DNA of 63,157 nucleotides from contig JACNGQ010000250.1 in assembly GCA_014384025.1 (NCBI GenBank), forward strand, positions 1 to 63,157. Direction: 5' to 3'. Each line of letters starts with the position of its first letter. The stretch's first letter is position 1. The stretch is from Planctomycetota bacterium (GTDB lineage Bacteria > Planctomycetota > Phycisphaerae > Sedimentisphaerales > Anaerobacaceae). Below the pieces are notes generated by a model that saw nothing but the letters and a program-made list of their open reading frames with translations, ran no database searches and was not told where the DNA came from. The position numbers were made by a program, and so were the translations under genes. Positions 16,189 through 31,406 of the stretch are shown here, piece after piece.

Positions 16189-17103
16189 TTATTTCGCCGG
16201 CAGAATCTCTACCATTTTATCCAGGGCTATTTTGGCCTTTTCCCTTATTACTTCGGGCACAGAAATTTTGTATTGCATATCTTCAAGGGCCCAGACGATT
16301 TTCTCCAGGGTAATCTTTTTCATATTGTGACAGATAGCCCTGTTGCTGGCCGGAATAAATTCGGCCTTGGGATTCTGTTTTTTCAGGGTATGAATTATTC
16401 CCATCTCGGTAGCTATTATAAACTGTTTTGCGGTGCTATCGGCTGCAAACTTGAGCATTTGTCCGGTGCTGAGCAATTCATCTGAAAGCTCTTTGACCGG
16501 CTCGCTGCATTCCGGATGCGCCATCACAATCGCATCGGGATATTTTGCTTTTGCAGTTTTAATATCATCTTCGGTTATCATCACATGCGTTATGCAATAA
16601 CCGGGCCAGAGTATAAGGTCTCGACCGGTTCTATCAGCCACAAACCGGCCAAGATGCTGATCCGGCACAAAGATAATTTGTCTATCTTTTGGTAATGAGC
16701 TTACCAACTCGACCGCATTGGCACTTGTGCAGCAGTAATCGCTCTCGGCCTTGACCTCTGCGGTACTATTTACATAGCAAACCACAAGCGCATCTGGGTG
16801 TTCCTGCTTGAGCTTACGTAATTGTTCTGCAGTTATCATATCTGCCATCGGGCAGCCGGCCGACTTATCAGGCAGGAGCACGGTCTTCTCGGGTGATAGA
16901 ATAGCAGCGGTTTCCGCCATGAACTGAACACCACAGAATACGATTACCTCAGCTTCTGTCTGGGCCGCCTTTATGCTCAAGCCCAAAGAATCGCCGCTGA
17001 AATCAGCGATGTCCTGTATTTCGCCCGGCTGATAATTGTGCGCAAGAATTACAGCATTATGCTGTTGCTTTAATCTTTCAATATTCTCAACTAACTTTTT
17101 CAA
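16189..17103 (-). CDS. nadA: quinolinate synthase NadA, 304 aa
   Basis: NadA condenses iminoaspartate with dihydroxyacetone phosphate to quinolinate, the NAD precursor, using a [4Fe-4S] cluster. The cluster ligands are probably C84 (SAGCPMAD), C170 (PGYCITH) and C258 (NRAICHN). The length matches the compact family. It is the only NAD gene in the window; nadB and nadC are absent. Its place in an operon with nifS and nifU fits its need for a cluster. It is 2 bp from the metXW start and 23 bp from the cysE end. Confidence 0.95.
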   Translation of the reverse strand: MKKLVENIERLKQQHNAVILAHNYQPGEIQDIADFSGDSLGLSIKAAQTEAEVIVFCGVQFMAETAAILSPEKTVLLPDKSAGCPMADMITAEQLRKLKQEHPDALVVCYVNSTAEVKAESDYCCTSANAVELVSSLPKDRQIIFVPDQHLGRFVADRTGRDLILWPGYCITHVMITEDDIKTAKAKYPDAIVMAHPECSEPVKELSDELLSTGQMLKFAADSTAKQFIIATEMGIIHTLKKQNPKAEFIPASNRAICHNMKKITLEKIVWALEDMQYKISVPEVIREKAKIALDKMVEILPAK

Positions 17104-17126
17104 ACGCCGGCTCCTGTGCTGTTTTA

Positions 17127-18059
17127 TTATTTATTCTTTTTATGTTTTTTATGTTTACGGTGCTTGTACAGTGAATCAAGTTTCGCCATCGAGACCGTCG
17201 TACCGGGAGGAACGGAGTTTCTAATCCACACGTTTCCGCCTATTACAGAGCCTTTGCCGATAGTAACATTTCCGAGTATGGTCGCTTCGGCGTATATAGT
17301 AACATCATCTTCGATCGTGGGGTGGCGCTTTGCACTTTTTATGCTCTGGGCTTTTTTCGGAATACTGACGGCGATTAATGAAACACCCTGATAGAACCTG
17401 ACATTGTCGCCTATAACCGATGTTTCGCCAACTACAACACCAGTGCCGTGATCGATAAAGAAGTTTTTACCTATCTTTGCTCCGGGATTTATATCGATAC
17501 CGGTTTTAGAATGGGCAAATTCGGTCATTATTCGTGGAATTAAAGGTACTTGTTTGAGATAAAGCTCATGGGCGATGCGATACGTTGCAATTGCCATGAT
17601 GCAGGGATAACTTATCACAATCTCTTCAAAAGATTTTGCCGCCGGGTCTCCCCCAAAGGCCGCACCGACGTCACCTTTTAACAGCTCTCTGATTTTCGGC
17701 AGTTGCGTCAATAAATGTTGTGTAGCCTTCTCCGCCATTGTCCGGCAGTCACAGCCGTCACACTTCTTAATTCTGCACTGGTATTGAAAAGCTCGTTCTA
17801 TTTGTTCTGAAAGCTCGGTATAGACCTGACACAGAATATCTCCGACGATGAAACTGATGTTTGATTTTGTGACAGTCCTTGTTCCAGTATAGCCGGGGAA
17901 AAGCACTTCCGTCAGTAACTCAAGGATTTCCAAAATCTTTCGTCGGATCGGCAGATTAGAGACGTCAATGAAATTTATACCGGTGTCGCCTTTATACGTT
18001 TGGGCAATTTCACTGACCAGTTTTTCCATTTTCCGGGAGGTTAATTTGTTCTTTTTCAT
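17127..18059 (-). CDS. cysE: serine O-acetyltransferase CysE, 310 aa
   Basis: CysE makes O-acetylserine, the substrate of cysteine synthase. It has a long helical N-terminal half, then the left-handed beta-helix hexapeptide region with GTGVVVGETSVIGDNV near residue 210 and RHPTIEDDVTIYAEATILG. The cysteine-rich insertion CRIKKCDGCDC around residues 92-102 is notable. The C-terminus is a lysine/histidine tail, KHRKHKKHKKNK, encoded by short A-rich repeats and probably not functional. It follows the Rrf2 regulator by 9 bp. This CysE is plausibly partner to CysK of the divergent operon. Confidence 0.93.
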   Translation of the reverse strand: MKKNKLTSRKMEKLVSEIAQTYKGDTGINFIDVSNLPIRRKILEILELLTEVLFPGYTGTRTVTKSNISFIVGDILCQVYTELSEQIERAFQYQCRIKKCDGCDCRTMAEKATQHLLTQLPKIRELLKGDVGAAFGGDPAAKSFEEIVISYPCIMAIATYRIAHELYLKQVPLIPRIMTEFAHSKTGIDINPGAKIGKNFFIDHGTGVVVGETSVIGDNVRFYQGVSLIAVSIPKKAQSIKSAKRHPTIEDDVTIYAEATILGNVTIGKGSVIGGNVWIRNSVPPGTTVSMAKLDSLYKHRKHKKHKKNK

Positions 18060-18068
18060 TATTTAGCC

Positions 18069-18503
18069 TTATATGTGATAATTTATCGCTTTGTTTTGTT
18101 TTGCCCTGTCAACGAGATTTTGTAATGTCATTGATTGCAAAACTCCCATAACCGCCTTTTGCACTTCTGTCCATACCTGTCTTGCAATACAATCATTTGT
18201 TCTTTCACAAAAACTTTCGTCTTCAACACATTCTGTTGTGATTACGGATCCTTCCAAACATTGAAAACACTCGCTCACTTTTACCTGGCCGGGTGGTTTA
18301 GCGAGGATGTAACCTCCTTTGGAGCCTCTGACGCTCCTGACAATCCCTGCTGCTTTGAGCATTGCCATTAATTGTTCCAGATATTTTACAGATACTACCT
18401 GGTCACGTGCAATAACTCTCAACTGCAAAGGTCCGTTGCCGTAATTTTCTGCCAATTCCAATATTGCCCGTATTCCATATCTGGTTCGAGTAGAAAGTTT
18501 CAT
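18069..18503 (-). CDS. Rrf2-family regulator with IscR-like cysteines, 144 aa
   Basis: This is a winged-helix transcription factor of the Rrf2 family and the first gene of the leftward operon. Cysteines at 92, 99 and 105 (after C79 and C82) have nearly the spacing that binds the IscR cluster, so it may sense Fe-S or sulfur status. AAGGA lies 8 nt before the ATG. Its own promoter carries a perfect inverted repeat over the -10 (18525-18539), suggesting autoregulation of the whole operon including nifS and nifU. It is distinct from the second Rrf2 protein across the intergenic region, which lacks the cysteine triad. Confidence 0.92.
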   Translation of the reverse strand: MKLSTRTRYGIRAILELAENYGNGPLQLRVIARDQVVSVKYLEQLMAMLKAAGIVRSVRGSKGGYILAKPPGQVKVSECFQCLEGSVITTECVEDESFCERTNDCIARQVWTEVQKAVMGVLQSMTLQNLVDRAKQNKAINYHI

Positions 18504-18524
18504 AGTTATGTTCCTTATAATTTC

Positions 18525-18539
18525 CTACTACATTAGTAG
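18525..18539. promoter_or_regulatory. inverted repeat over the leftward promoter (putative Rrf2 operator)
   Basis: CTACTA-CAT-TAGTAG is a perfect 6-3-6 dyad. It overlaps the predicted -10 of the leftward promoter, a normal place for repressor binding. Confidence 0.55.
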
Positions 18540-18560
18540 CATATTACGAACTTTTGTCAA
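18532..18560 (-). promoter_or_regulatory. leftward sulfur-operon promoter
   Basis: On the minus strand TTGACA (18560-18555), a 17-bp spacer and ACTAAT (18537-18532) form a sigma-70-like promoter. A second TTGACA lies 13 bp upstream (18573-18568). The start of transcription would fall about 20 bp before the Rrf2 ATG. Confidence 0.5.
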
Positions 18561-18610
18561 CCAATGTTGTCAAAAATTTAACGAAAAACAGCGTATTTTT
18601 CAGGTTTCTC

Positions 18611-18628
18611 AATATTTTTGAAAATATT
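18611..18628. promoter_or_regulatory. AT-rich dyad between the divergent promoters
   Basis: AATATTTT-TG-AAAATATT is a perfect 8-2-8 inverted repeat just upstream of the rightward -35. It could be an operator or an UP-like element. Confidence 0.4.
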
Positions 18629-18642
18629 TTACAAAAAAACTG

Positions 18643-18691
18643 TTGACAGCGAACATTTATATCGATAGTATAGTATTCCGATAGAATTACT
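18643..18691 (+). promoter_or_regulatory. rightward sulfur-operon promoter with Rrf2/CymR-like dyad
   Basis: TTGACA at 18643-18648 is followed after 17 bp by TAGTAT (18666-18671), or after 20 bp by TATAGT. Overlapping and following it, AGTATTC-CGATA-GAATTACT (18672-18691) is an inverted repeat with one extra base in the right arm. Its ATTCC...GAAT core resembles CymR-type sites. It would cover the transcription start. Confidence 0.5.
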
Positions 18692-18705
18692 GAGGTATGA
18701 TTTAT

Positions 18706-19152
18706 ATGAAAATATCTAAGAAATGCCAATATGCATTAAAAGCAATACTTGAAATTGCCCGGCGAAATACCAGCCAGGCAGTTAAAACTCATGATATCGC
18801 TTGTTCTCAAAGGATATCTCAACGATTTACTGAGATTATTCTTAACGAACTCAAACATGGCGGCTTTGTCGAATCAAGACGAGGCAATGAAGGCGGCTAT
18901 TTACTGGCAAGAGACCATAAAACTCTGACGGTCAGGGAAGTAATTGAATATATCCAGGGTGACATTTCAGTTGCTCCAGAAGCCCTCAAAGATAATGGGG
19001 ACGCCTCATTATTTGGAGACGAAGCCTTTAAGAAGCTTTGGCAGGAGGTTAATAATTCAGTATCGGAGGTTTGCGCAAGCAAGACATTTGCCGACTTGAT
19101 AGATTTTGAAAATACTAAAAGAGAAAAATGTGTTCCAAATTACAACATTTAA
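18706..19152 (+). CDS. Rrf2-family regulator, CymR-like candidate, 148 aa
   Basis: This second Rrf2-type winged-helix regulator heads the rightward sulfur-assimilation operon. The ATG at 18706 (MKISKK) is chosen because GAGG lies 10 nt upstream; an ATG at 18697 would sit on top of that site. The recognition helix region SQRISQRFTEIILNEL and the wing RRGNEGGYLLAR are typical. It has no IscR-like cysteine triad. In Bacillus the Rrf2 protein CymR represses cysteine genes with CysK as partner. Here cysK is in the same operon, so similar control is plausible but unproven. Confidence 0.9.
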   Translation: MKISKKCQYALKAILEIARRNTSQAVKTHDIACSQRISQRFTEIILNELKHGGFVESRRGNEGGYLLARDHKTLTVREVIEYIQGDISVAPEALKDNGDASLFGDEAFKKLWQEVNNSVSEVCASKTFADLIDFENTKREKCVPNYNI

Positions 19153-19194: not shown

Positions 19195-19416
19195 GTGGAA
19201 TCGCATTACAGAAGTATCGTTAAAGCAATAACGTGGCGGGCAGGTGGCACTATCGTGACCTTTGGCGTTGCCTGGATTCTCACCGGCGATATTAGTTTTT
19301 CAGCAAAAATGGGAATGTTAGACACGATGGTCAAGATAGGTGTCTTTTATTTTCATGAAAGATTATGGAATCGACTGAATTTTGGCAGATCGAAACCGCC
19401 CGAGTATCAAATATAA
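19195..19416 (+). CDS. DUF2061 small membrane protein, 73 aa
   Basis: This is a DUF2061 protein, identified by SIVKAITWRAGGTIVTF and the ending FHERLWNRLNFGR. It has one or two hydrophobic segments. The function is unknown, but members often occur next to sulfate-activation and reduction genes, as here. The start is GTG at 19195 with GGAG ten bases upstream. It lies 42 bp after the regulator and 39 bp before APS reductase. Confidence 0.9.
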   Translation: MESHYRSIVKAITWRAGGTIVTFGVAWILTGDISFSAKMGMLDTMVKIGVFYFHERLWNRLNFGRSKPPEYQI

Positions 19417-19455: not shown

Positions 19456-20169
19456 ATGATAATCCAAGAAGTTACAGAAAATGTTGTTGAGCTTGTTGAG
19501 AAGCTTAATTTTGCAGAGAAAGTCGATCGCTCACTTGAGTTGATTGATCGTGCTTACAAGGAATTCGGGGACGGACTAGTAGTTGCGAACAGCCTTGGCA
19601 AAGACTCCAGTGCCGTATGGCATCTTGCAAAACGTGTAAGTCCAAAGATTCGAGGTTTTATCGTTACTACAAGGTTCAAACCAAAGGAAACTAAGCAGTT
19701 TATGGCAGAAGAAGTTGCCCGATATCCGGAATTGAAGATTTACAGCAATGACGAAAAAATTCCGGATAAGCTATACGAGACCGACCCTGACAAATGTTGT
19801 GAAATCCTAAAGGTTCAACCAGTCCGACAAGCTGTGCAGGAAATGAACGTTGAGTGCTGGGTTACAGGGCTTCGCTGCACTGAAGGCCGGACTCGCACGA
19901 ATTACAAAGAAGTGGAAGAGCTGGACAAAGGCCTGATTAAGCTTAATCCCATTCTTATTTGGTATGAGCGTGAAATTTGGCAGTATCTGGCCTTAAATGA
20001 TGTACCTGTTAATCCGCTTTACAACAAAGGATATAGGTCCCTGGGTTGTGCTCCGTGCACGAAAATCGCTCAGGGTGTTGACGAGCGGGCAGGCCGTTGG
20101 ATTGGAACGAGCAAGTGCGGCGGTGAGTGCGGTATCCACACAAAGCCTCTACTTGACTACCAGATATAG
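19456..20169 (+). CDS. cysH: adenylylsulfate (APS) reductase, CysH family, 237 aa
   Basis: This enzyme reduces activated sulfate to sulfite. The PP-loop-like SLGKDSS is at 46-52. The paired cysteines C114-C115 and the CAPC at 198-201 are the [4Fe-4S] ligands that mark the APS-using, cluster-bearing type and are missing from E. coli-type PAPS reductases. The catalytic cysteine is C225 in the C-terminal ECGIH. Its product, sulfite, is the substrate of the sulfite reductase five genes downstream. ATP sulfurylase, which makes APS, is not in the window. AAGGAG precedes the ATG. Confidence 0.93.
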   Translation: MIIQEVTENVVELVEKLNFAEKVDRSLELIDRAYKEFGDGLVVANSLGKDSSAVWHLAKRVSPKIRGFIVTTRFKPKETKQFMAEEVARYPELKIYSNDEKIPDKLYETDPDKCCEILKVQPVRQAVQEMNVECWVTGLRCTEGRTRTNYKEVEELDKGLIKLNPILIWYEREIWQYLALNDVPVNPLYNKGYRSLGCAPCTKIAQGVDERAGRWIGTSKCGGECGIHTKPLLDYQI

Positions 20170-20188
20170 TAAAAAGGTAAAACTGAAA

Positions 20189-21439
20189 ATGAAGCAAGAC
20201 ACTTTGTCAATTCACGGCGGTTTTGCAGGAGATAGTATCAGCGGTGCTACGGCTGTACCTATTTGTCAGACCGTCTCTTACGCCTACAAAACCGCTCAGG
20301 AACTTGCCGATGTTTTTCACGGCAAAGCTCCCGGTTATATTTATACACGGATTGCGAATCCAACCACTACCGCTCTTGAGGCCAGACTGAATCTGCTTGA
20401 AGACGGGATCGGGTGTATTGCTACTTCCAGCGGTATGGCAGCTATCGCGTCGGTTGTGATGAATTTAACAAGGGCCGGAGACGAGATAATAGCCGCAACG
20501 GGCATATTCGGCGGGACGGTATCTTTGTTTGAAAATACGTTAGGGCGGTTCGGAGTAAAGACCAACTTTGTTGATGCCGCGAATACAAATCAATTCGCAA
20601 AAGCTATCAATGACACAACAAAACTGATTTTCATCGAGACTATTGGCAATCCTCGAATGGATGTGCCTGATATACCGGAGATTGCTGAAATTGCTCATAA
20701 GGCCAATGTGCCTTTGGTTGTTGATAATACTGTTACTACACCTTTTATCATAAGGCCTGTGGATTTCGGTGCTGATATTGTTGTTCATTCGACATCAAAG
20801 TTTATTAACGGGCACGGTACAGCGATTGGGGGGGCAATAATCGATACGGGAAACTATAACTGGAGAAAAGGGGCGTTTGATGATATAAGAGATTTATCTG
20901 AAAGAGTAGGCCAATTGGCTTTCCTTGCAAACTTGCGAAACCTGATTTATCGCGATCTCGGCGGCTGTCCTGCTCCGATGAATTCTTTTCTTATGCTGCA
21001 GGGCTTAGAGACTCTGCCTGTAAGAATAGTCAAACACGACGAAAATGCAAAGCAGTTAGCCCAATTTCTACAGACCCATCCGAAAGTATCATGGGTGAAC
21101 TACCCGGGATTGACCGACAGCAGGTTTAGCGAAAGAGTTACAAAGCTTTTTGCCGGCTGTGGCGGTGGATTGCTCACATTCGGCCTTGGCGACAAGCAAC
21201 GAGCTTTTAACTTTATCGATTCACTTAAGCTGGCAAAGAACCTTGCAAATCTCGGTGATGCAAAAACACTGGTAGTACATCCGGCCTCTACTATATTTCA
21301 TGAGTTCAGCATTACCGAGCAGAATAAAATGGGAGTTACCGAAGATATGGTCCGTGTTTCGGTCGGCATCGAGGATTTTGAAGATATAAAGGCTGATTTT
21401 CAGCAGGCAATAGAAAGAGCTTTTAAGGAGACAAAATGA
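20189..21439 (+). CDS. metY: second MetY-type O-acetylhomoserine sulfhydrylase, 416 aa
   Basis: This PLP enzyme of the Cys/Met-metabolism family has the opening DTLSIHGG, YTRIANPT, and the PLP-lysine region VVHSTSKFINGHGT. The ATG at 20189 is chosen: the frame is open from 19997, but that extension lies inside cysH and is not family-like. Its last codons overlap the start of the ThiS-like carrier gene (ATGA). That coupling, plus the ThiF-like and JAMM genes, marks it as the MetY that should accept sulfur from a protein thiocarboxylate, as in the Wolinella HcyS system. The paralogue is at 13088. Confidence 0.92.
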   Translation: MKQDTLSIHGGFAGDSISGATAVPICQTVSYAYKTAQELADVFHGKAPGYIYTRIANPTTTALEARLNLLEDGIGCIATSSGMAAIASVVMNLTRAGDEIIAATGIFGGTVSLFENTLGRFGVKTNFVDAANTNQFAKAINDTTKLIFIETIGNPRMDVPDIPEIAEIAHKANVPLVVDNTVTTPFIIRPVDFGADIVVHSTSKFINGHGTAIGGAIIDTGNYNWRKGAFDDIRDLSERVGQLAFLANLRNLIYRDLGGCPAPMNSFLMLQGLETLPVRIVKHDENAKQLAQFLQTHPKVSWVNYPGLTDSRFSERVTKLFAGCGGGLLTFGLGDKQRAFNFIDSLKLAKNLANLGDAKTLVVHPASTIFHEFSITEQNKMGVTEDMVRVSVGIEDFEDIKADFQQAIERAFKETK

Positions 21440-21651
21440 ATCTTGTTATAAATGGCAAAGAGACTAATATTACTGCTGGTTTGACTGTGAATCAACTTCT
21501 GGCTCAGGAGAATGTACAGATGCCGGATATGGTGTCGGTCGAACTTAACGGGCAGATTCTAAAAAGAACTAAGTTTGACCAGACAATACTAAAGGACGAC
21601 GATAAAGTGGAATTTCTATATTTTATGGGAGGCGGAAGTGTCTCTAACTGA
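21436..21651 (+). CDS. hcyS: HcyS-like sulfur carrier with masked C-terminus, 71 aa
   Basis: This is a ThiS/MoaD beta-grasp carrier. Unlike the ThiS at 9514, it does not end in Gly-Gly but in MGGGSVSN, so four residues follow the glycines. They must be cut off before the carrier can be adenylated and thiocarboxylated. A JAMM protease two genes downstream is the obvious cutter. In Wolinella succinogenes HcyS has a C-terminal residue removed by HcyD in the same way (from memory). AAGGAG lies 5 nt before the ATG. The gene overlaps metY by 4 bp and the ThiF-like gene by 14 bp. Confidence 0.9.
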   Translation: MNLVINGKETNITAGLTVNQLLAQENVQMPDMVSVELNGQILKRTKFDQTILKDDDKVEFLYFMGGGSVSN

Positions 21652-22453
21652 AAAACAAATAGAAAGATACAGCCGGCATATAATCCTGGAGCAGGTTGGC
21701 GGTAAAGGTCAGGAAAAACTGCTAAGATCCAAAGTGTTGATTATAGGTGCTGGCGGTCTTGGAGCCCCGGCCGGTTTATACCTTGCCGCCGCCGGGGTCG
21801 GAACAATTGGAATTGTCGATTGCGATAAGGTCGATTTGACAAACCTGCAACGCCAGATAATCCATCATACAAGCGATGTAGGCGTCGAAAAAATCAAATC
21901 CGCCGAGAATAAGATGCGGGCAATAAATCCGGACATCACTGTCCAGACTTATCAGACCAGAGTGGATGCCAAGAATATATCAGATATTATCCGTAAGTAC
22001 GATTTTGTCATTGACGGCACGGACAATTTCCCTGCCAAATTTCTTATCAACGATGCGTGTTATTTCGAGAAGATACCGTTTTCACACGCAGGGATTCTGC
22101 GGTTCCATGGCCAGTTGATAACAGTACTGCCCGGCGAAACAACGTGCTACCGCTGTATCTTTAGTGCTCCGCCCCCTGCCAACGCAGTACCATCTTGTTC
22201 GCAGGCCGGTGTGCTTGGTGTTCTGGCCGGGGTCATTGGTTCTTTGCAGGCAACCGAAGCAATAAAGTATTTATTGGGACTCGGCAAGCTGCTGACCGGA
22301 ACGTTGTTGACGTATGATGCGCTTGAAATGAACTTTCGCGCGGTCAAATTAAACCGTAATCCAAACTGCCCACTGTGTGGTGGAAAACCAAAAATAACAG
22401 AACTGAAAGACGAAGAACAGGTCGTATGTGATCTGAAGAACTGCAAATGCTGA
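21638..22453 (+). CDS. hcyF: HcyF/ThiF/MoeB-type carrier-activating enzyme, 271 aa
   Basis: This E1-like enzyme adenylates the C-terminus of a ThiS-type carrier. It shows the nucleotide-binding GAGGLGAP (about 32-39), the DLTNLQRQ arginine loop, and zinc cysteines CYRC and CPLC. The conserved cysteine is in PSCSQAGVLG. The start is GTG at 21638. Its ribosome-binding site GGGAGG lies inside the Gly-Gly-Gly codons of the carrier gene, and the start codon lies within the carrier's tail codons. The protein ends in an unusual CDLKNCKC. As the only ThiF-like protein in the window it might also serve ThiS. Confidence 0.92.
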   Translation: MSLTEKQIERYSRHIILEQVGGKGQEKLLRSKVLIIGAGGLGAPAGLYLAAAGVGTIGIVDCDKVDLTNLQRQIIHHTSDVGVEKIKSAENKMRAINPDITVQTYQTRVDAKNISDIIRKYDFVIDGTDNFPAKFLINDACYFEKIPFSHAGILRFHGQLITVLPGETTCYRCIFSAPPPANAVPSCSQAGVLGVLAGVIGSLQATEAIKYLLGLGKLLTGTLLTYDALEMNFRAVKLNRNPNCPLCGGKPKITELKDEEQVVCDLKNCKC

Positions 22454-22857
22454 AGTTAGAGATTCCAAATACAATATTCCAACAGATGGTTGCTCAAGCC
22501 AAGGCTCTGGCGCCAATCGAGGACTGTGGAATCCTGGCGGGCAGCAACAGTAAAGTCGAGAAACTCTATAAGATGACAAATACTGATAACAGCAGCACGC
22601 ACTATATGATGGATCCGAAGGAGCAGTTTGCGACTGTCAAAGATATTCGTTCGGCCGGACTTGAGATGTTAGCGATATATCACAGCCATCCTGAAACACC
22701 GGCCAGACCTTCGGCTGTGGATATCAGGCTGGCACTTACGCCGAATGTGATTTATGTAATTGTTTCGCTACAGAATAATAATGGTTCTGCGATCAAAGGA
22801 TTTCATATAACAGGAACTAATGTAGCTGAAGTGCCTATAAGGATTTTGGAAAGATAG
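22447..22857 (+). CDS. hcyD: JAMM/MPN metalloprotease, HcyD-like, 136 aa
   Basis: This is a zinc isopeptidase-type protease of the JAMM (M67) family. The full zinc motif is present: E25, then H79-S-H81, seven residues, S89 and D92 (HSHPETPARPSAVD). It overlaps the ThiF-like gene by 7 bp and is followed after 1 bp by the sulfite reductase. In this setting it should remove the SVSN tail from the carrier at 21436 to expose Gly-Gly. Bacterial JAMM proteins with ThiS/ThiF partners do this in cysteine (CysO/Mec) and homocysteine (HcyS/HcyD) synthesis. Confidence 0.92.
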   Translation: MLKLEIPNTIFQQMVAQAKALAPIEDCGILAGSNSKVEKLYKMTNTDNSSTHYMMDPKEQFATVKDIRSAGLEMLAIYHSHPETPARPSAVDIRLALTPNVIYVIVSLQNNNGSAIKGFHITGTNVAEVPIRILER

Positions 22858-22858
22858 A

Positions 22859-25084
22859 ATGAGTAAACCAGAAGAGCCAATTTTACATATTCCCCAAAGC
22901 GTCAAAGAAGATACTCATGGCTACCGCAGCCAGGTCAAAAAGTTTCTTGACGGCCAAACGTCACCGGTAGCCTTCAGAGCCTATCGAGTGCCGATGGGAA
23001 TCTATGAGCAAAGAGCGGCAGGTAAATTCATGGTTAGGATACGTATCGGAGCAGGGCTGGTTTTGCCGCATCAACTGGAACGAATTGCTCATTTGAGTAA
23101 AACCTATGGCAATGGAATTGTTCACGTTACAACCAGGCAGGATATTCAGATTCACGAGGTGGATATCGAAGATTCACCTGACGTACTGGAAGGTTTACTT
23201 GAAGCCGGGCTTTCTTCACGCGGCGGCGGCGGTAATACCGTCCGTAATGTTACAGCCTGTCCGGAGGCGGGAGTCTGTCCGGAAGAAGAATTTGACGTGG
23301 CTCCTTATGCGATTGCCGCCGCAGAATATCTCCTGAAGGACAGAAGCTCTTTTAATTTGCCGAGAAAATACAAAATAGTCTTTTCCGGCTGTTCAAAGGA
23401 TTGTGCATTTGCCTCTATAGCAGACCTCGGCTTTTTCGCCCACATGAAAAACGAAGCGAAAGGTTTTTCTGTTTACGCAGCGGGGGGGCTCGGGTCAAAC
23501 CCTGCGGTTGCAGCGAAAATTGAAGATTTCATAGAAGCTGAAGAGATTTTCGAAGTTGCAGAGGCCGTCAAGAAATTGTTCGATAAATACGGTGACAGGG
23601 CAAACAAACATAAAGCAAGACTGAGATACGTGCTCGCCAGAGTCGGTATTGAAAAATTTATCAAATTATACCGGGCCGAAAGAGATATACTTAAGACCGA
23701 AGGACTCCCTTACACAGCACCGCAAATTTGTGAGATTACCTCAATCTATAAGGTTCCCAAGACGTCGATTACTGTGCGATTACGGTTAAAAAACGGTGAC
23801 ATACCCGCAGATGACCTGAGCAAAGTTGGTCAAATCGCAGCTAAATACGGCCAGGGGCTCATAAGGACTACTCAACTGCAGGACCTTCTCATCACAGGCA
23901 TTGTCAAGGAAGATAATGACAAGGTCCATAGCGAGCTTAAAAAACTCAGCATTGATGTTTTTGGCGACGGCAGCTCTAAAATAGTTGCCTGCGCCGGTGC
24001 TTCAACATGCAAACTCGGACTATGTCTTTCAAGAGGTTTGGCAGAGGCGATTTCAAATAAGCTAAGCCGGACGGCTTCTTCAGCCGGTTTGTCAGAAACA
24101 ACCATAAGAATCAGCGGCTGTCCGAATTCCTGCGGGCATCATTATATCGCCGCAATAGGATTACAGGGCAAAGCCAAAAGAGTCAACGGCAAACTGATGC
24201 CATGCTATGATGTATTGGTGGGCGCAAAAACCATTGAAGGTGATGCACATCTGGGCAAAAGGATAGGTACGGTACCCGCAAAAAAAATACCTGAGCTGTT
24301 AGCAGAAGTCTTTGATGCCGGTGAAATTAATGAAGAAAAGCTAAAAAACCGGGTTGGCCAATATAGTGATTTTTCTTCCGAGCAATTTCCGGATGACTAT
24401 TATTACGACTTCGGTTCGAATGAGCCGTTTTCACTGGCCGGCAGGGGACCGGGTGAGTGCGGCGCCGGCGTAACGGACGTAATCAAGCTGGATATCGACG
24501 AAGCGAAAGACGCTCTCAAATCCGCACCTACCAACAGTGAAAATATTTATAAGGCGGTTATTGCCGCCGCCAGAGCGCTGATGGTTACGTTTGGTCTGGA
24601 GCCAAAAAAGGACAGGGAAATATTTGCTGCATTTACAAGAGGTCTTATTGAGCCGGGCTGGGTTAAACCTCAGACACAGCAGCTCCTTGACGATGCAATT
24701 GACTGGCGTATGGGGGATAAAGAGTCAATCGAGGATTTGTTTCCGCAGGCCGAGGATTTAACAAAAAGAGTAGAAGAGCTTTATCTGTCCCTTGATGCCA
24801 ATCTAAAGTTTAAGATAGAGCCGGTGGCTAAGAAAACCAACGTTGATAAGGAAGATGCCGACAATCATGTTATCGATTTACGAGGAGTCGGATGCCCCTT
24901 AAACTTTGTTAAAGCAAAACTTGAGCTTGAAAAGCTCGATACAGGTGCTATTCTTGGCGTATTGCTTGATGAAGGGGAGCCGGTAAGGAATGTTCCGGCA
25001 AGTTTTGCCGAACAGGGCCAGGAAGTTTTGGAAGTTAAAAACAGCGGTGATCACTTTTTTGTAAAAGTGCGCCGAAAAAAATAA
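22859..25084 (+). CDS. sulfite reductase fused to TusA, 741 aa
   Basis: Residues ~1-480 are a two-repeat siroheme sulfite/nitrite reductase. Both repeats carry the complete cluster motif C-x5-C then C-x3-C: C134, C140, C178, C182 in the first and C378, C384, C421, C425 in the second. In usual assimilatory enzymes only the second repeat keeps these cysteines. Residues ~540-650 are a helical region I do not recognise. Residues ~669-740 are a TusA sulfur-relay domain with the persulfide cysteine C679 in GVGCP. The fusion suggests that sulfide made at the siroheme is passed on the chain to the carrier machinery. It lies 1 bp after the JAMM gene. Confidence 0.9.
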   Translation: MSKPEEPILHIPQSVKEDTHGYRSQVKKFLDGQTSPVAFRAYRVPMGIYEQRAAGKFMVRIRIGAGLVLPHQLERIAHLSKTYGNGIVHVTTRQDIQIHEVDIEDSPDVLEGLLEAGLSSRGGGGNTVRNVTACPEAGVCPEEEFDVAPYAIAAAEYLLKDRSSFNLPRKYKIVFSGCSKDCAFASIADLGFFAHMKNEAKGFSVYAAGGLGSNPAVAAKIEDFIEAEEIFEVAEAVKKLFDKYGDRANKHKARLRYVLARVGIEKFIKLYRAERDILKTEGLPYTAPQICEITSIYKVPKTSITVRLRLKNGDIPADDLSKVGQIAAKYGQGLIRTTQLQDLLITGIVKEDNDKVHSELKKLSIDVFGDGSSKIVACAGASTCKLGLCLSRGLAEAISNKLSRTASSAGLSETTIRISGCPNSCGHHYIAAIGLQGKAKRVNGKLMPCYDVLVGAKTIEGDAHLGKRIGTVPAKKIPELLAEVFDAGEINEEKLKNRVGQYSDFSSEQFPDDYYYDFGSNEPFSLAGRGPGECGAGVTDVIKLDIDEAKDALKSAPTNSENIYKAVIAAARALMVTFGLEPKKDREIFAAFTRGLIEPGWVKPQTQQLLDDAIDWRMGDKESIEDLFPQAEDLTKRVEELYLSLDANLKFKIEPVAKKTNVDKEDADNHVIDLRGVGCPLNFVKAKLELEKLDTGAILGVLLDEGEPVRNVPASFAEQGQEVLEVKNSGDHFFVKVRRKK

Positions 25085-25133: not shown

Positions 25134-26054
25134 ATGAATATTGCAAAAGATATGACTGAGCTAATTGGTAAAACGCCGCTGGTCCAGCTCAACAGAGTAA
25201 GTAGAGATTGTAAAGCAAAAATAGTAGGCAAACTGGAGTTCTTCAATCCAGCCAGCAGTGTCAAGGACCGTATAGGTGTAAATATGGTATTGTCTGCGGA
25301 ACGAGCCGGTAAAATCAAACCCGGAATGACCCTTGTTGAACCGACCAGCGGAAATACCGGAATCGCCCTTGCCTGGGTTGCAGCGGCAAGAGGATATAAG
25401 CTGATACTTACAATGCCGGAATCAATGACAATCGAGCGAAGAAAAATACTTCAGCTATTCGGTGCCGAACTTGTACTTACACCTGCAGAAGAAGGTATGA
25501 CCGGTGCGATCAATAAGGCCAATGAAATCGTGGAAAAAACCGATGGCGCCTTTATGCCACAGCAGTTCCTTAATCCTGCGAATCCCCAGATACATAGAGA
25601 AACAACCGCTGAAGAGATTTGGGCCGATACCGATGGACAGGTGGACATCTTTGTTTCCGGCGTAGGTACCGGTGGTACAATAACCGGTGTTGGTGAAGTG
25701 CTGAAATCGCGCAAACCATCCGTCAAAATTGTTGCCGTTGAACCTGCGGAATCCCCGGTCCTTTCCGGCGGCAAGCCCGGTCCGCATATGATTCAGGGCA
25801 TTGGTGCAGGCTTCGTCCCGGATGTTTTGGATTTGGAAGTTGTTGATGAGGTTGTACAGATAACAAATGCCGAAGCATTTGATATGGCAAAACGCTTAGC
25901 TAAAGAAGAAGGTATCTTTACCGGCATATCAGCCGGTGCCGCAACGGCCGCAGCTATCAAGATAGGTAAACGCCAGGAAAATGCCGGCAAACTGATTGTT
26001 GCCGTCCTCTGCGACACAGCCGAGAGATATATCAGTACGGGACTGTTCGAATAA
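25134..26054 (+). CDS. cysK: cysteine synthase A CysK, 306 aa
   Basis: CysK makes cysteine from O-acetylserine and sulfide with PLP. The PLP lysine is in [11 protein letters not shown] (about residues 37-47). The substrate loop TSGNTG is near 70-75, and the phosphate-binding GTGGTITG is near 176-183. GAGG precedes the ATG. It lies 49 bp after the sulfite reductase. O-acetylserine would come from CysE of the divergent operon. In some bacteria CysK also binds CysE and Rrf2-type regulators, so it may carry a regulatory signal here. Confidence 0.96.
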
Positions 26055-27559: not shown

Positions 27560-27635
27560 AATACGGTGAAAAGCTGTTCCGATTTACAGGGGTCATGAAA
27601 TGCTTGTATCGTGCCAAATGTTAGGGGTGAAAAAT

Positions 27636-28940
27636 ATGAACAGACAAGTCATTGCGGTTTTAATAATTGTGCTCGTCTTAACTATGTCTGTCAGAGCTAC
27701 ACAGCAGCCGTCTGATACAAATGATTTACGAAAACTCGCGGATTATCTGCGTTATGCCTCTCTAAATAACGCTGAGTTAAAAACAAAATTTGAGCAGTGG
27801 AAGGCTGCATTAGAGCAGATACCCCAGGCGAAAGCGTTAGATGACCCGAAATTTACCTACAGCTATTTTATAGAGGAAGTCGAGACACGGGTCGGGCCGC
27901 AACAACAAAAACTCGGTATAATGCAGGTATTCCCCTGGTTTGGCAAAATCCAGGCCAGAACCGACATGGCCGCGGCAAAGGCACATGCTGCAAGGCAAAG
28001 ATACGAAACAACAAAGTTAAAACTTTTTTGGCAGGTAAAAGCGGCTTTTTACGAATTTACATATCTGGCCACTGCGATTGGCATTGCAAAGCAAAACCTC
28101 GAACTGCTGCAGCATTTCGAAGAAGTCGCACGAACCAAATACAGAACCGCCACGGCGATACATCCCGACATAATTCGTGTCCAGGTGGAATTAGCTAAAC
28201 TTGAGGATATCTTAAAAAGTCTGGAGCAGCTCAGAGAGCCAACAGTTGTGAAACTCAATTCGGTGCTTAATCGGTCGATTGATGCAGAATTAGTCTGGCC
28301 CGAAAAAAGTCAGCCGGAAAATGTCCAGCTTGACCGCAAGCTGCTTATTCAGGCGTTAAAAAGAGCGAATCCTGAACTTGCCGAGCTTAGCTGGGAAATT
28401 CAGGCGGCGCAAAGCAGTGTGAAGCTGGCAAAAAAGAAGTTTTATCCCGATATAGGAGTAGGCCTCGATTGGATTCAGACGGATGGAGCGGTTTCTCCGG
28501 GAGTCAGAGGCAGCGGCGATGACCCGGTGATTTTAATGTTTTCAATGAATATCCCCCTGTGGCAGAACAGCTATAAAGCTGCTGAGCAGCAGGCAAAAGC
28601 CAATGTCAGGAAAATTCAGGAGCAAAGAACAGATACCGAAAACAAAATATTATCAAGAGCGTTCGAGGTGCTGTACGATATCGAAGACAGTCAAAGAAAG
28701 ACACATCTTTATGGGGATGTTTTAGTTTCCAAGGCCGAAGAGCTTGTTCAGGCATCCGAAACCGCCTATAAAGCAGGCACGATAGATTTCCTCTCGCTGA
28801 TAGATGCCCAGCGCATGCTGCTTAAGTATGGGCTGGACTACGAAAGGGCTGTTACAAATAATCAGCAGAAACTGGCCGAACTGGAAATGCTTATCGGGAT
28901 CGAACTGCCCTCAGTCAACAGCAGCGCTTTGGAAAAGTGA
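27636..28940 (+). CDS. TolC/CusC-like outer-membrane efflux protein, 434 aa
   Basis: This is the outer-membrane channel of a tripartite heavy-metal pump. It has a signal peptide (NRQVIAVLIIVLVLTMSVRA) and two long coiled-coil repeats typical of TolC-type proteins. The start at 27636 has AGGGGTG upstream. It lacks the lipobox cysteine of E. coli CusC. It lies 76 bp after csoR and belongs with the CusB-like and CusA-like genes that follow. Confidence 0.92.
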   Translation: MNRQVIAVLIIVLVLTMSVRATQQPSDTNDLRKLADYLRYASLNNAELKTKFEQWKAALEQIPQAKALDDPKFTYSYFIEEVETRVGPQQQKLGIMQVFPWFGKIQARTDMAAAKAHAARQRYETTKLKLFWQVKAAFYEFTYLATAIGIAKQNLELLQHFEEVARTKYRTATAIHPDIIRVQVELAKLEDILKSLEQLREPTVVKLNSVLNRSIDAELVWPEKSQPENVQLDRKLLIQALKRANPELAELSWEIQAAQSSVKLAKKKFYPDIGVGLDWIQTDGAVSPGVRGSGDDPVILMFSMNIPLWQNSYKAAEQQAKANVRKIQEQRTDTENKILSRAFEVLYDIEDSQRKTHLYGDVLVSKAEELVQASETAYKAGTIDFLSLIDAQRMLLKYGLDYERAVTNNQQKLAELEMLIGIELPSVNSSALEK

Positions 28941-28980
28941 TTCAATCGTTCATTTGGTTTGGTTAAAGAAAGGAATAGAA

Positions 28981-29283
28981 ATGAAGCCATACGTATTGAT
29001 ATTTCTGCTGGCATTTATTTTTTGGGGATTAGCCTTGAGCGAAAATGCTTTTGCGAATGACCAGGCCAGCCAAGAAGACCATGACCCCAGCTCTTTTTCA
29101 TTATTGTTCATGGTCAAGCCTCTGGGAATAGCTACGCTCTGTTTAGTTTTCACCACTTTCCTGACGGGTCTGTTTCGCAGAAAGCTGCGCCTAAAATTTC
29201 TCAAAATACACCTGCCTCTGGCCATAATTTCTGTCTTCCTGGGATTAACGCATGGCGTATTGGTCCTGATCCTGTATGGTTAA
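28981..29283 (+). CDS. small membrane protein of the copper operon, 100 aa
   Basis: I do not recognise the family. The chain has an N-terminal signal-like segment (KPYVLIFLLAFIFWGLALS), a short acidic HD-containing stretch, then two membrane segments (about 42-62 and 74-98). Histidines in KIH and LTHG lie at the start and middle of the last segment, a placing seen in heme- or metal-binding small membrane proteins, but that is only suggestive. AAAGGAA precedes the ATG at 28981. It lies 40 bp after the TolC gene. Confidence 0.75.
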   Translation: MKPYVLIFLLAFIFWGLALSENAFANDQASQEDHDPSSFSLLFMVKPLGIATLCLVFTTFLTGLFRRKLRLKFLKIHLPLAIISVFLGLTHGVLVLILYG

Positions 29284-29426
29284 GGGCAATTTGTTTGTTC
29301 TATTGGGCTCGGCAAAAAAGCACACAAAGCAAAAAGTTGTTGATGTTGATAATGGCTTAAAAGCTGTGTTTAATTGAACATAGCTCCTATGGCAATAGTA
29401 TGATTAACAAGTTATAGGTGGCTGAA

Positions 29427-31406
29427 ATGAAAATGACACAAGCCAAATCGTTATTGAGTGGTCGGGTATTTAAGACTGTTATTTTAGTAGTTATAACGTT
29501 CCTTGCGGGTTATTTCTTCCACGCGCTTTTGAAGCAATCCACCACCGGCCCAGAGCATGAACATACCGGCGAACAAGCTGCCGCAGAAAAACAGACGATG
29601 TGGACATGCTCGATGCATCCACAGATTCGTCAGCCAAAACCTGGCAAGTGCCCGCTTTGCTTTATGGATCTGATCCCGGCATCATCCGAGAGTGGTGACG
29701 TAGGCCCGAGGCAAATCACCTTCTCTCAAGAGGCCTTAAAGCTTATGGAGGTTCAAACGACCCCTGTGGAGCGAAAATTTGTCGAGGCCGAAATCCGCAT
29801 GGTTGGCAAGGTTGATTATGACGAGACCAAGGTAAAAAATATCACCGCCTGGGTCCCCGGCAGAATCGACCGGCTTTACGTGGATTTTACAGGCATTACG
29901 GTTAACAAGGGCGACCACATGGTCGATCTTTACAGTCCTGAACTAATCAGCGCACAGGCAGAGCTGCTTCAGGCCCTAAAAGCTGTCGGTGGTATTAAAG
30001 ACAATACTTCTGACATTATGAAAAGAACCATTCTTGCCACACTTGAAGCGTCCAGAGATAAACTTCGACTGCTTGGTCTTGCCGATGCTCAAATTGAAAA
30101 CATCGAAAGCGCCGGCGAACCGGTCACTCATATAACGATTTATTCACCTATGGGCGGGGTAGTCATCCATAAGAACGCCACAGAAGGTATGTACGTTAAC
30201 ACAGGCACACCTATTTACACCCTTGCGGACCTTTCGCGTTTGTGGATTAAGCTGGATGCTTACGAGTCTGATTTGCCCTGGATTCGGTACGGTCAGGAAG
30301 TTGAATTCTCAACGGAAGCATATCCGGGGCAGATATTCAAAAGCAAAATAAGCTTCCGTGACCCCATACTCAACGCAAAGACCAGGACGGTCAAGGTGCG
30401 CCTCAACGTCGATAATCCTGACGGAAGTCTCAAACCCGGAATGTTTGTAAGAGGCGTATTGCGGGCGAAAGTTGCCCAGGGAGGCGCCGCAATGGACCCC
30501 GAACTGGCCGGCAAATGGATTTGTCCGATGCATCCATCTGTTGTCAAGGACCAGCCGGGAGCCTGCGACATCTGCGAAATGGATTTGGTGGCTACCGAGT
30601 CACTATTCGCTATGGCTAATGAACCCAACGAGCCGCCTCTGGTAATTCCCGTTACTGCGCCTTTGATAACGGGCAAACGAGCGATTGTGTATGTCCGGAT
30701 ACCAGATGCAAATAAGCCGACGTTCGAGGGTAGAGAGGTAGTTCTTGGCCCAAGAGCGGCGGATTACTATTTAGTCAAAGAGGGACTTGCCGAAGGAGAG
30801 ATTGTCGTTACTAACGGTAATTTTAAGATTGATTCGGCCCTTCAGATACAGGCCAAGCCCAGTATGATGAGCGCAGAAAAAGTTCAGACAGCAACAGAAC
30901 ATCAGCTTTCCGTCAGCGAAATTAAATACGAGATTTTTGAAGTGCCGGATGAGTTTCGCAGGCAAACCTGGGGGATTGTTGAAAAGTACTTATCGCTTCA
31001 GGGTGCCCTGGCTTCTGATGATAAAGATGGCGCCACCCGTGCGGCGGGCCAGACACAGGCAGCGCTCTCTGCGGTTGATATGAGTTTGGTTAGCGACAAG
31101 GCTCATAATGTGTGGATGGCTAACAGCACGAAAATGAAAGCGGCGTTAGATAAGATAAAAGAAGCCAAGGCAATTGAGCCGATGCGCGAAGGATTTGAGG
31201 GGCTTTCCAACGAGCTTATTGCTGTTGTCGGGCAATTTGGAGTTTACGAAGGTAAGACTCTTTACAAGCTAAATTGCCCGATGGCGTTTAATAACAAGGG
31301 AGCAGACTGGCTGCAAATAGATGAGGATATTCGTAATCCTTATTTTGGCGCCTCTATGTACAAATGCGGCCAGGTTAGTGAAGTAATAGGCACAAAGCCG
31401 AAATGA
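29427..31406 (+). CDS. cusB: CusB-like periplasmic adaptor with two heavy-metal-binding domains, 659 aa
   Basis: This is the membrane-fusion adaptor of an RND metal pump. After one membrane anchor (about 15-34) comes a heavy-metal-binding domain with C61, H64, C75 and C78 (WTCSMHP...CPLCFMDL). The adaptor barrel and hairpin follow. A second such domain (WICPMHP...CDICEMDLV) is inserted near 357-385. The last ~170 residues look like a DUF3347-type domain with another possible metal site. The ATG at 29427 has AGGTGG five bases upstream and is preferred to GTG 29418. Two metal-binding domains in one adaptor is more than E. coli CusB has. Confidence 0.92.
   Translation: MKMTQAKSLLSGRVFKTVILVVITFLAGYFFHALLKQSTTGPEHEHTGEQAAAEKQTMWTCSMHPQIRQPKPGKCPLCFMDLIPASSESGDVGPRQITFSQEALKLMEVQTTPVERKFVEAEIRMVGKVDYDETKVKNITAWVPGRIDRLYVDFTGITVNKGDHMVDLYSPELISAQAELLQALKAVGGIKDNTSDIMKRTILATLEASRDKLRLLGLADAQIENIESAGEPVTHITIYSPMGGVVIHKNATEGMYVNTGTPIYTLADLSRLWIKLDAYESDLPWIRYGQEVEFSTEAYPGQIFKSKISFRDPILNAKTRTVKVRLNVDNPDGSLKPGMFVRGVLRAKVAQGGAAMDPELAGKWICPMHPSVVKDQPGACDICEMDLVATESLFAMANEPNEPPLVIPVTAPLITGKRAIVYVRIPDANKPTFEGREVVLGPRAADYYLVKEGLAEGEIVVTNGNFKIDSALQIQAKPSMMSAEKVQTATEHQLSVSEIKYEIFEVPDEFRRQTWGIVEKYLSLQGALASDDKDGATRAAGQTQAALSAVDMSLVSDKAHNVWMANSTKMKAALDKIKEAKAIEPMREGFEGLSNELIAVVGQFGVYEGKTLYKLNCPMAFNNKGADWLQIDEDIRNPYFGASMYKCGQVSEVIGTKPK

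Follow-up and report, generated by a model that had tools for sequence, protein, structure and literature searches.

Assimilatory sulfite reductases (SiRs) are, on the accepted account, fused duplicates that arose by duplication and fusion, one of the two halves having subsequently lost its cluster site, and the description of Fsr states for the assimilatory enzymes in general that it is the N-terminal half from which the cluster motif has been lost (PMC10229431). Among the solved enzymes, the NirA/plant-type ferredoxin nitrite and sulfite reductases from tobacco, spinach and M. tuberculosis (3b0h, 2akj, 1zj8) display a two-repeat fold with the canonical cluster motif and basic active-site residues, while the motif of repeat 1 is gone. 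Fsr (7np8, 7npa) is assembled as a homo-oligomer from single-repeat chains, and both of its sites are active; five basic residues of one protomer (Arg355, Arg388, Arg423, Lys460 and Lys462) anchor the siroheme, and the other protomer contributes the cluster (PMC10229431). DsrAB, in turn, is a pseudo-dimer of two separate subunits in which each half carries a cluster motif, and keeps a structural siroheme at its inactive site (PMC10229431).

The gene surroundings described below also have known counterparts. In Wolinella, a sulfur-transfer pathway composed of HcyS, HcyF, HcyD and MetY was reportedly shown by Krishnamoorthy and Begley in 2011 (cited in PMC5764234). Iyer et al. (2006) delineated a neighbourhood, type 4e, comprising a ThiS/MoaD-like protein, a JAB protein, an E1 without a rhodanese domain, a sulfite reductase, an O-acetylhomoserine sulfhydrylase and a PAPS reductase, in which a SirA (TusA) protein is always found and was predicted to substitute for rhodanese (PMC1779556). 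The pathway, and the place of TusA within it, are therefore already known.

The sequence analysed here, referred to as the window, is a stretch of 63,157 nucleotides from a planctomycete contig. The SiR gene and its neighbours are arranged as follows, with the parts of the SiR listed after the gene itself.

19195-19416, + strand: DUF2061 membrane protein, member of the conserved gene set
19456-20169, + strand: CysH-type APS/PAPS reductase
20183-21439, + strand: MetY-type O-acetylhomoserine sulfhydrylase (TIGR01326 above cut-off)
21436-21651, + strand: HcyS-like sulfur carrier of the ThiS fold, ending in GGG-SVSN
21638-22453, + strand: HcyF-like E1/ThiF adenylyltransferase without a rhodanese domain
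22447-22857, + strand: HcyD-like JAMM/Prok-JAB protease
22859-25084, + strand: fused assimilatory SiR with HEPN-like and TusA tail, 741 aa
23003-23674, + strand: SiR repeat 1, residues 49-272, which contributes R62, R93, R129, K170 and K172 to the canonical siroheme site and bears the N-terminal Cys set
23258-23404, + strand: N-terminal cluster motif C134-x5-C140...C178-x3-C182
23759-24328, + strand: SiR repeat 2, residues 301-490
23990-24133, + strand: canonical siroheme-linked cluster motif C378-x5-C384...C421-x3-C425, complete in all 138 homologues
24464-24796, + strand: HEPN-like helical domain, residues 536-646 (VIA-align Z 12.4 to 2hsb; weak Pfam HEPN match, E 0.15)
24854-25081, + strand: TusA domain, residues 666-741, with catalytic C679 (codon 24893-24895) in a CPLN motif, not CPxP
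25134-26054, + strand: CysK cysteine synthase (TIGR01139 above cut-off)

The SiR reading frame opens with ATG, contains no internal stop and encodes cysteines at positions 134, 140, 178, 182, 291, 378, 384, 389, 421, 425, 449, 534 and 679; both C-x5-C...C-x3-C sets and C679 thus sit exactly where the first-pass annotation had placed them. Pfam assigns two NIR_SIR and two NIR_SIR_ferr domains and a TusA domain (671-738), every match lying above its cut-off, and the presence of both pairs of repeats on one chain is a feature of NirA-type membership. The best NCBIfam matches are likewise NirA-type enzymes, albeit all far under cut-off (PRK09567: 256 bits against 523). In an AlphaFold2 model with a mean pLDDT of 79.9, in which confidence is low at some loops (the 120s, 382-386 and 422-424), residues 13-500 superpose on plant NiR and M. 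tuberculosis NirA with VIA-align Z scores of 35-36.5 (rmsd 3.0-3.2, 451-463 residues aligned). The window enzyme shares with these proteins the fold, the canonical cluster motif and the basic active-site residues, and differs from them in retaining the motif of repeat 1. Repeat 1 alone (model residues 35-282) matches the SiR domain of single-repeat Fsr (7np8: Z 22.2, rmsd 2.2, 233 aligned; 7npa: Z 21.8), whose C-x5-C...C-x3-C resembles the canonical motif, and also matches DsrB (Z 19.0). Like DsrAB, the window SiR has cluster motifs in both halves, but it joins in a single chain what DsrAB distributes over two subunits and what Fsr assembles from separate single repeats. Its assignment as a NirA-type, that is, ferredoxin-type and fused two-repeat, siroheme sulfite reductase within a sulfate-assimilation gene cluster is a prediction that we hold probable jointly with the remainder of the explanation set out below.

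For a wider comparison, a set of 138 homologues was used, drawn from Planctomycetota, Omnitrophota and Latescibacterota together with named plasmid-borne genes. The C-terminal Cys set is complete in every one of them. At the N-terminal set, 78 have all four cysteines, 17 have three, nine read C-x-C-H, and 34 retain at most one (two in a single row); the first and last of these classes are referred to as four-Cys and Cys-lost enzymes.

The C-terminal tail of the window SiR ends in a TusA domain (PF01206, 58.1 bits against a cut-off of 28.6), which has the catalytic cysteine and superposes on TusA 3lvj with a VIA-align Z of 12.3. In E. coli TusA the motif at this cysteine is CPEP. The window carries CPLN at 24887-24904, and all 35 SiR-fused TusA tails found by pattern have CPxN, one of them with an ambiguous base at the cysteine; CPxP was seen in none. 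The HEPN-like stretch contains no histidine, so that it represents a HEPN-like domain without the RNase R-x4-6-H motif. A HEPN-TusA tail is absent from 3b0h, 2akj and 1zj8. The Wolinella Hcy set and the Iyer type 4e neighbourhood have in common with the window the ThiS-like carrier, JAB protein, rhodanese-free E1, sulfite reductase, O-acetylhomoserine sulfhydrylase, PAPS reductase and SirA/TusA, but in the window the HEPN-like domain joins TusA and the reductase into one protein.

The first-pass annotation had asked whether TusA and the HcyS genes invariably accompany the double motif. A coupling of the double motif to TusA is ruled out, since the tail is present in 24 of the 78 four-Cys enzymes and in 9 of the 34 Cys-lost ones; the two are unlinked features. 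The tail goes instead with the genes for HcyS, HcyF and HcyD. The genes for the ThiS-like carrier, the E1-like protein, the JAMM protease, MetY and the sulfite reductase are adjacent in the window, and the order DUF2061-cysH-metY-hcyS-hcyF-hcyD-SiR-cysK is largely kept among planctomycete relatives. Where enough flanking sequence is available, the reductase has JAMM and ThiF genes as neighbours at 25 of 29 loci with a TusA tail and at 1 of 23 without one, counts that are not independent because many of the loci share ancestry. Within the tailed loci, this adjacency is found for four-Cys (18/20) and Cys-lost (7/9) enzymes alike. Two lineages nested in the clade of the window SiR (L132/L133 and L135) have neither the tail nor thiocarboxylate genes nearby. 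The in-frame stops of L132 and L135 were considered as selenocysteine codons and rejected: they fall at query position 519 or 505, beyond the SiR core, and are therefore taken as the normal end of a tail-less enzyme.

Further upstream (16189-19152), a nadA-like gene, a CysE-like serine acetyltransferase gene and two Rrf2-type regulator genes flank the sulfur genes, in an order kept in loci L002 and L007. What appears to be a separate module for metal efflux lies downstream at 27600-31406, where a CsoR-like regulator gene is followed by one for an outer-membrane efflux protein and one for a metal-efflux membrane-fusion protein.

The gene linkage and the known families suggest how the tail might operate. 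The HEPN-TusA tail would couple the SiR to the HcyS pathway, independently of any second cluster: sulfur made at the siroheme would pass, directly or via C679, to an HcyS adenylated by HcyF and trimmed by HcyD, and from there to MetY for homocysteine formation, while CysK may take free sulfide. Since the carrier ends in GGG-SVSN, trimming would have to precede activation, and trimming by the JAMM protein fits this arrangement. It seems to be general among these carriers, whose GGG precedes a terminal stretch of about 1-9 residues that varies from one carrier to the next (SVSN in the window; RCL, R and HASERATD in others).

That C679 takes the newly made sulfur directly, as the first-pass annotation had suggested, is possible. 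In its strongest form, the TusA tail would accept partly reduced sulfur, at the S0 level, from the siroheme as a C679 persulfide in a DsrC-like manner, and the product of the enzyme would be this persulfide in place of free sulfide, a reading that bears on the tail and is compatible with any interpretation of the clusters. The linkage of the tail to the HcyS/F/D genes speaks for it, as does the absence of a rhodanese domain from HcyF, given the prediction that a SirA/TusA protein takes over the work of the rhodanese in gene sets of this kind (PMC1779556). However, the arginine equivalent to R93, which is replaced by threonine in DsrA, marks six-electron assimilatory sites (PMC10229431), and R93 is invariant here, as in enzymes that reduce sulfite fully to sulfide. 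The tail-less enzymes L132, L133 and L135 of the same clade also count against a persulfide product. In vitro, bisulfide from Sir is said to suffice in Wolinella, which is a further point against it. We therefore consider a persulfide product doubtful.

Turning to the clusters, hhalign matches one half of the SiR to the other along 196 columns (probability 99.9, E 2e-36), in a register that sets C134, C140, C178 and C182 over C378, C384, C421 and C425. The pattern is not missing from close homologues, an outcome that the first-pass annotation had named as one that would tell against it: all four N-terminal cysteines are invariant in a 20-row alignment spanning 38-90% identity to the window SiR. 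That only the second repeat binds the siroheme-linked cluster in known assimilatory enzymes, also stated there, fits the sequences of the solved tobacco NiR, spinach NiR and M. tuberculosis NirA, from which the N-terminal set is absent, and agrees with the general statement in PMC10229431. Yet the complete N-terminal motif is present in the window SiR and 77 of 137 homologues, so that its loss is a trait of the solved members and not a requirement of the family. Five further named enzymes read CDCC (Nonomuraea), CKCC (Halocatena), SDTE (Deinococcus), ADGS (Sulfitobacter) and DVLR (Acinetobacter) at the four positions.

A four-Cys cluster cannot hold for every member, because in the recurrent three-Cys class C140 alone is replaced, by D, S, R, L, Q, E or A. 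The CDCC variant, with aspartate for C140, recurs in haloarchaeal, actinobacterial, planctomycete and Omnitrophota NirA-like enzymes (L063, L165, L059, L045, L049, L086 and L095) and possibly holds a cluster with an aspartate ligand. CSCH, another ligand pattern, occurs in Thermus and Omnitrophota (L057, L082, L085, L087, L089, L090, L091, L096).

The distribution of these classes was followed on a tree built without the four N-terminal Cys columns, a quick reconstruction that used no mixture model and contains long branches. It calls for 16 changes among the four classes; the near-lost state requires 14 changes, at least 9 of them forced by starred branches. When loss is taken as irreversible, many events drop three or four cysteines on a single branch and others fewer, and the simultaneous disappearance of three or four is expected for ligands of one metal centre. 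Loss is favoured over gain by the duplication itself, as repeat 2 carries this motif without exception and single-repeat Fsr has it too; the direction is given by this argument and not by the tree. Together, the class counts and the repeated losses lead us to regard the N-terminal cysteines, judged by sequence, as a real and mostly all-or-none ligand set. Enzymes of the window type look like holders of a second cluster site that the textbook assimilatory enzymes have lost, in line with the published scenario of fused duplicates (PMC10229431).

Whether this second site might also hold siroheme was approached through the five basic residues that anchor the cofactor in Fsr. Repeat 1 of the window SiR keeps all five equivalents (R62, R93, R129, K170 and K172), which face the repeat-2 cluster and are K or R in 99-100% of the 78 four-Cys homologues. 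Mirrored by hhalign onto repeat 2, they correspond to R309, L340, S373, E413 and T415, of which one is basic; at these positions K or R is found in 27, 4, 3, 13 and 56% of the four-Cys enzymes, and in 18, 3, 9, 3 and 56% of the Cys-lost ones. Planctomycete DsrB, in alignments read by eye, keeps four of the five, whose equivalents line the structural-siroheme site and face the second site. Of the features of a DsrAB-like second siroheme site, the window SiR thus has the cluster cysteines in both halves but lacks the basic residues of the partner half. The columns that best distinguish four-Cys from Cys-lost representatives are the four cysteines and D95 in repeat 1, and L394 only in repeat 2. 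D95, in the sequence TTRQD (codon 23141-23143), accompanies the N-terminal cysteines (94% of the four-Cys representatives, 13% of the Cys-lost ones), and it may contact the second cluster. Genes for siroheme synthesis (two cobA and cysG-N) are present in the same genome.

Two sirohemes are unlikely because the mirrored site is without its basic residues, and two catalytic sirohemes are ruled out on the same residues, together with the observation that repeat 2 follows the N-terminal cysteines at L394 only. Of the earlier proposal of two clusters or two sirohemes, the reality of both Cys sets therefore stands, while the two sirohemes do not. Most likely, as far as the residues indicate, a second [4Fe-4S] cluster without siroheme lies beside the catalytic siroheme-[4Fe-4S] centre. 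The catalytic siroheme would be held between the repeat-1 basic residues and the [4Fe-4S] cluster of C378/C384/C421/C425, and C134/C140/C178/C182 would hold the second cluster, predicted to be siroheme-free since the basic residues needed to cradle the cofactor are gone from repeat 2. APS reductase would provide sulfite, and electrons would run from ferredoxin or a similar donor through the repeat-2 cluster to the siroheme. The second cluster would survive as an ancestral site and stabilise the fold, and it may store or relay extra electrons for the six-electron reduction. Taken as a whole, one siroheme-[4Fe-4S] centre, a second siroheme-free [4Fe-4S] cluster and a HEPN-TusA tail tied to the HcyS pathway constitute an explanation that we consider probable.

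It is unlikely that siroheme or sirohydrochlorin occupies both sites, the second being a structural porphyrin site as in DsrAB but fused into one chain. Repeat 1 does resemble Fsr and DsrB, which bind cluster and siroheme together, the inactive site of DsrAB offers a precedent, and R309 is kept in the window SiR; yet R309 is not conserved among the four-Cys members, the mirrored site has one basic residue against four in DsrB, and a single leucine is all that tracks the N-terminal cysteines in repeat 2.

More improbable still is that the N-terminal cysteines bind no cluster and are a structural relic, as a zinc site, disulfides or free thiols. The persistence of the three-Cys and CxCH variants would be understandable in that case, as would the functioning enzyme core of relatives with none of the four cysteines. 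However, spacing and identity are fully conserved in 78 homologues, the register is identical to that of the cluster motif proven for repeat 2 and for Fsr/Dsr, and several cysteines are often lost together. Very unlikely is a single chain in which a catalytic and a structural centre coexist, both complete and of the siroheme/cluster type, and which stands near the postulated fused intermediate before loss and passes sulfur at the S0 level to the cysteine of its own TusA domain and on to the ubiquitin-like carrier.

The two variations that set the window SiR apart, its fusion to HEPN-TusA and the presence of two cluster motifs in a fused assimilatory enzyme, are without description in the literature searched, most subscription journals lying outside its scope. 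Set against the accepted account of duplication, fusion and loss of the cluster site in one half, the complete ligand set is still present in many fused enzymes of Planctomycetota, Omnitrophota and Latescibacterota, and its loss has recurred, which supplies naturally occurring before-and-after pairs in which to look for the role of the second cluster. The TusA tail, for its part, is tied to a ubiquitin-like sulfur-carrier pathway, and relatives of the window enzyme have or lack the double motif and the tail separately.
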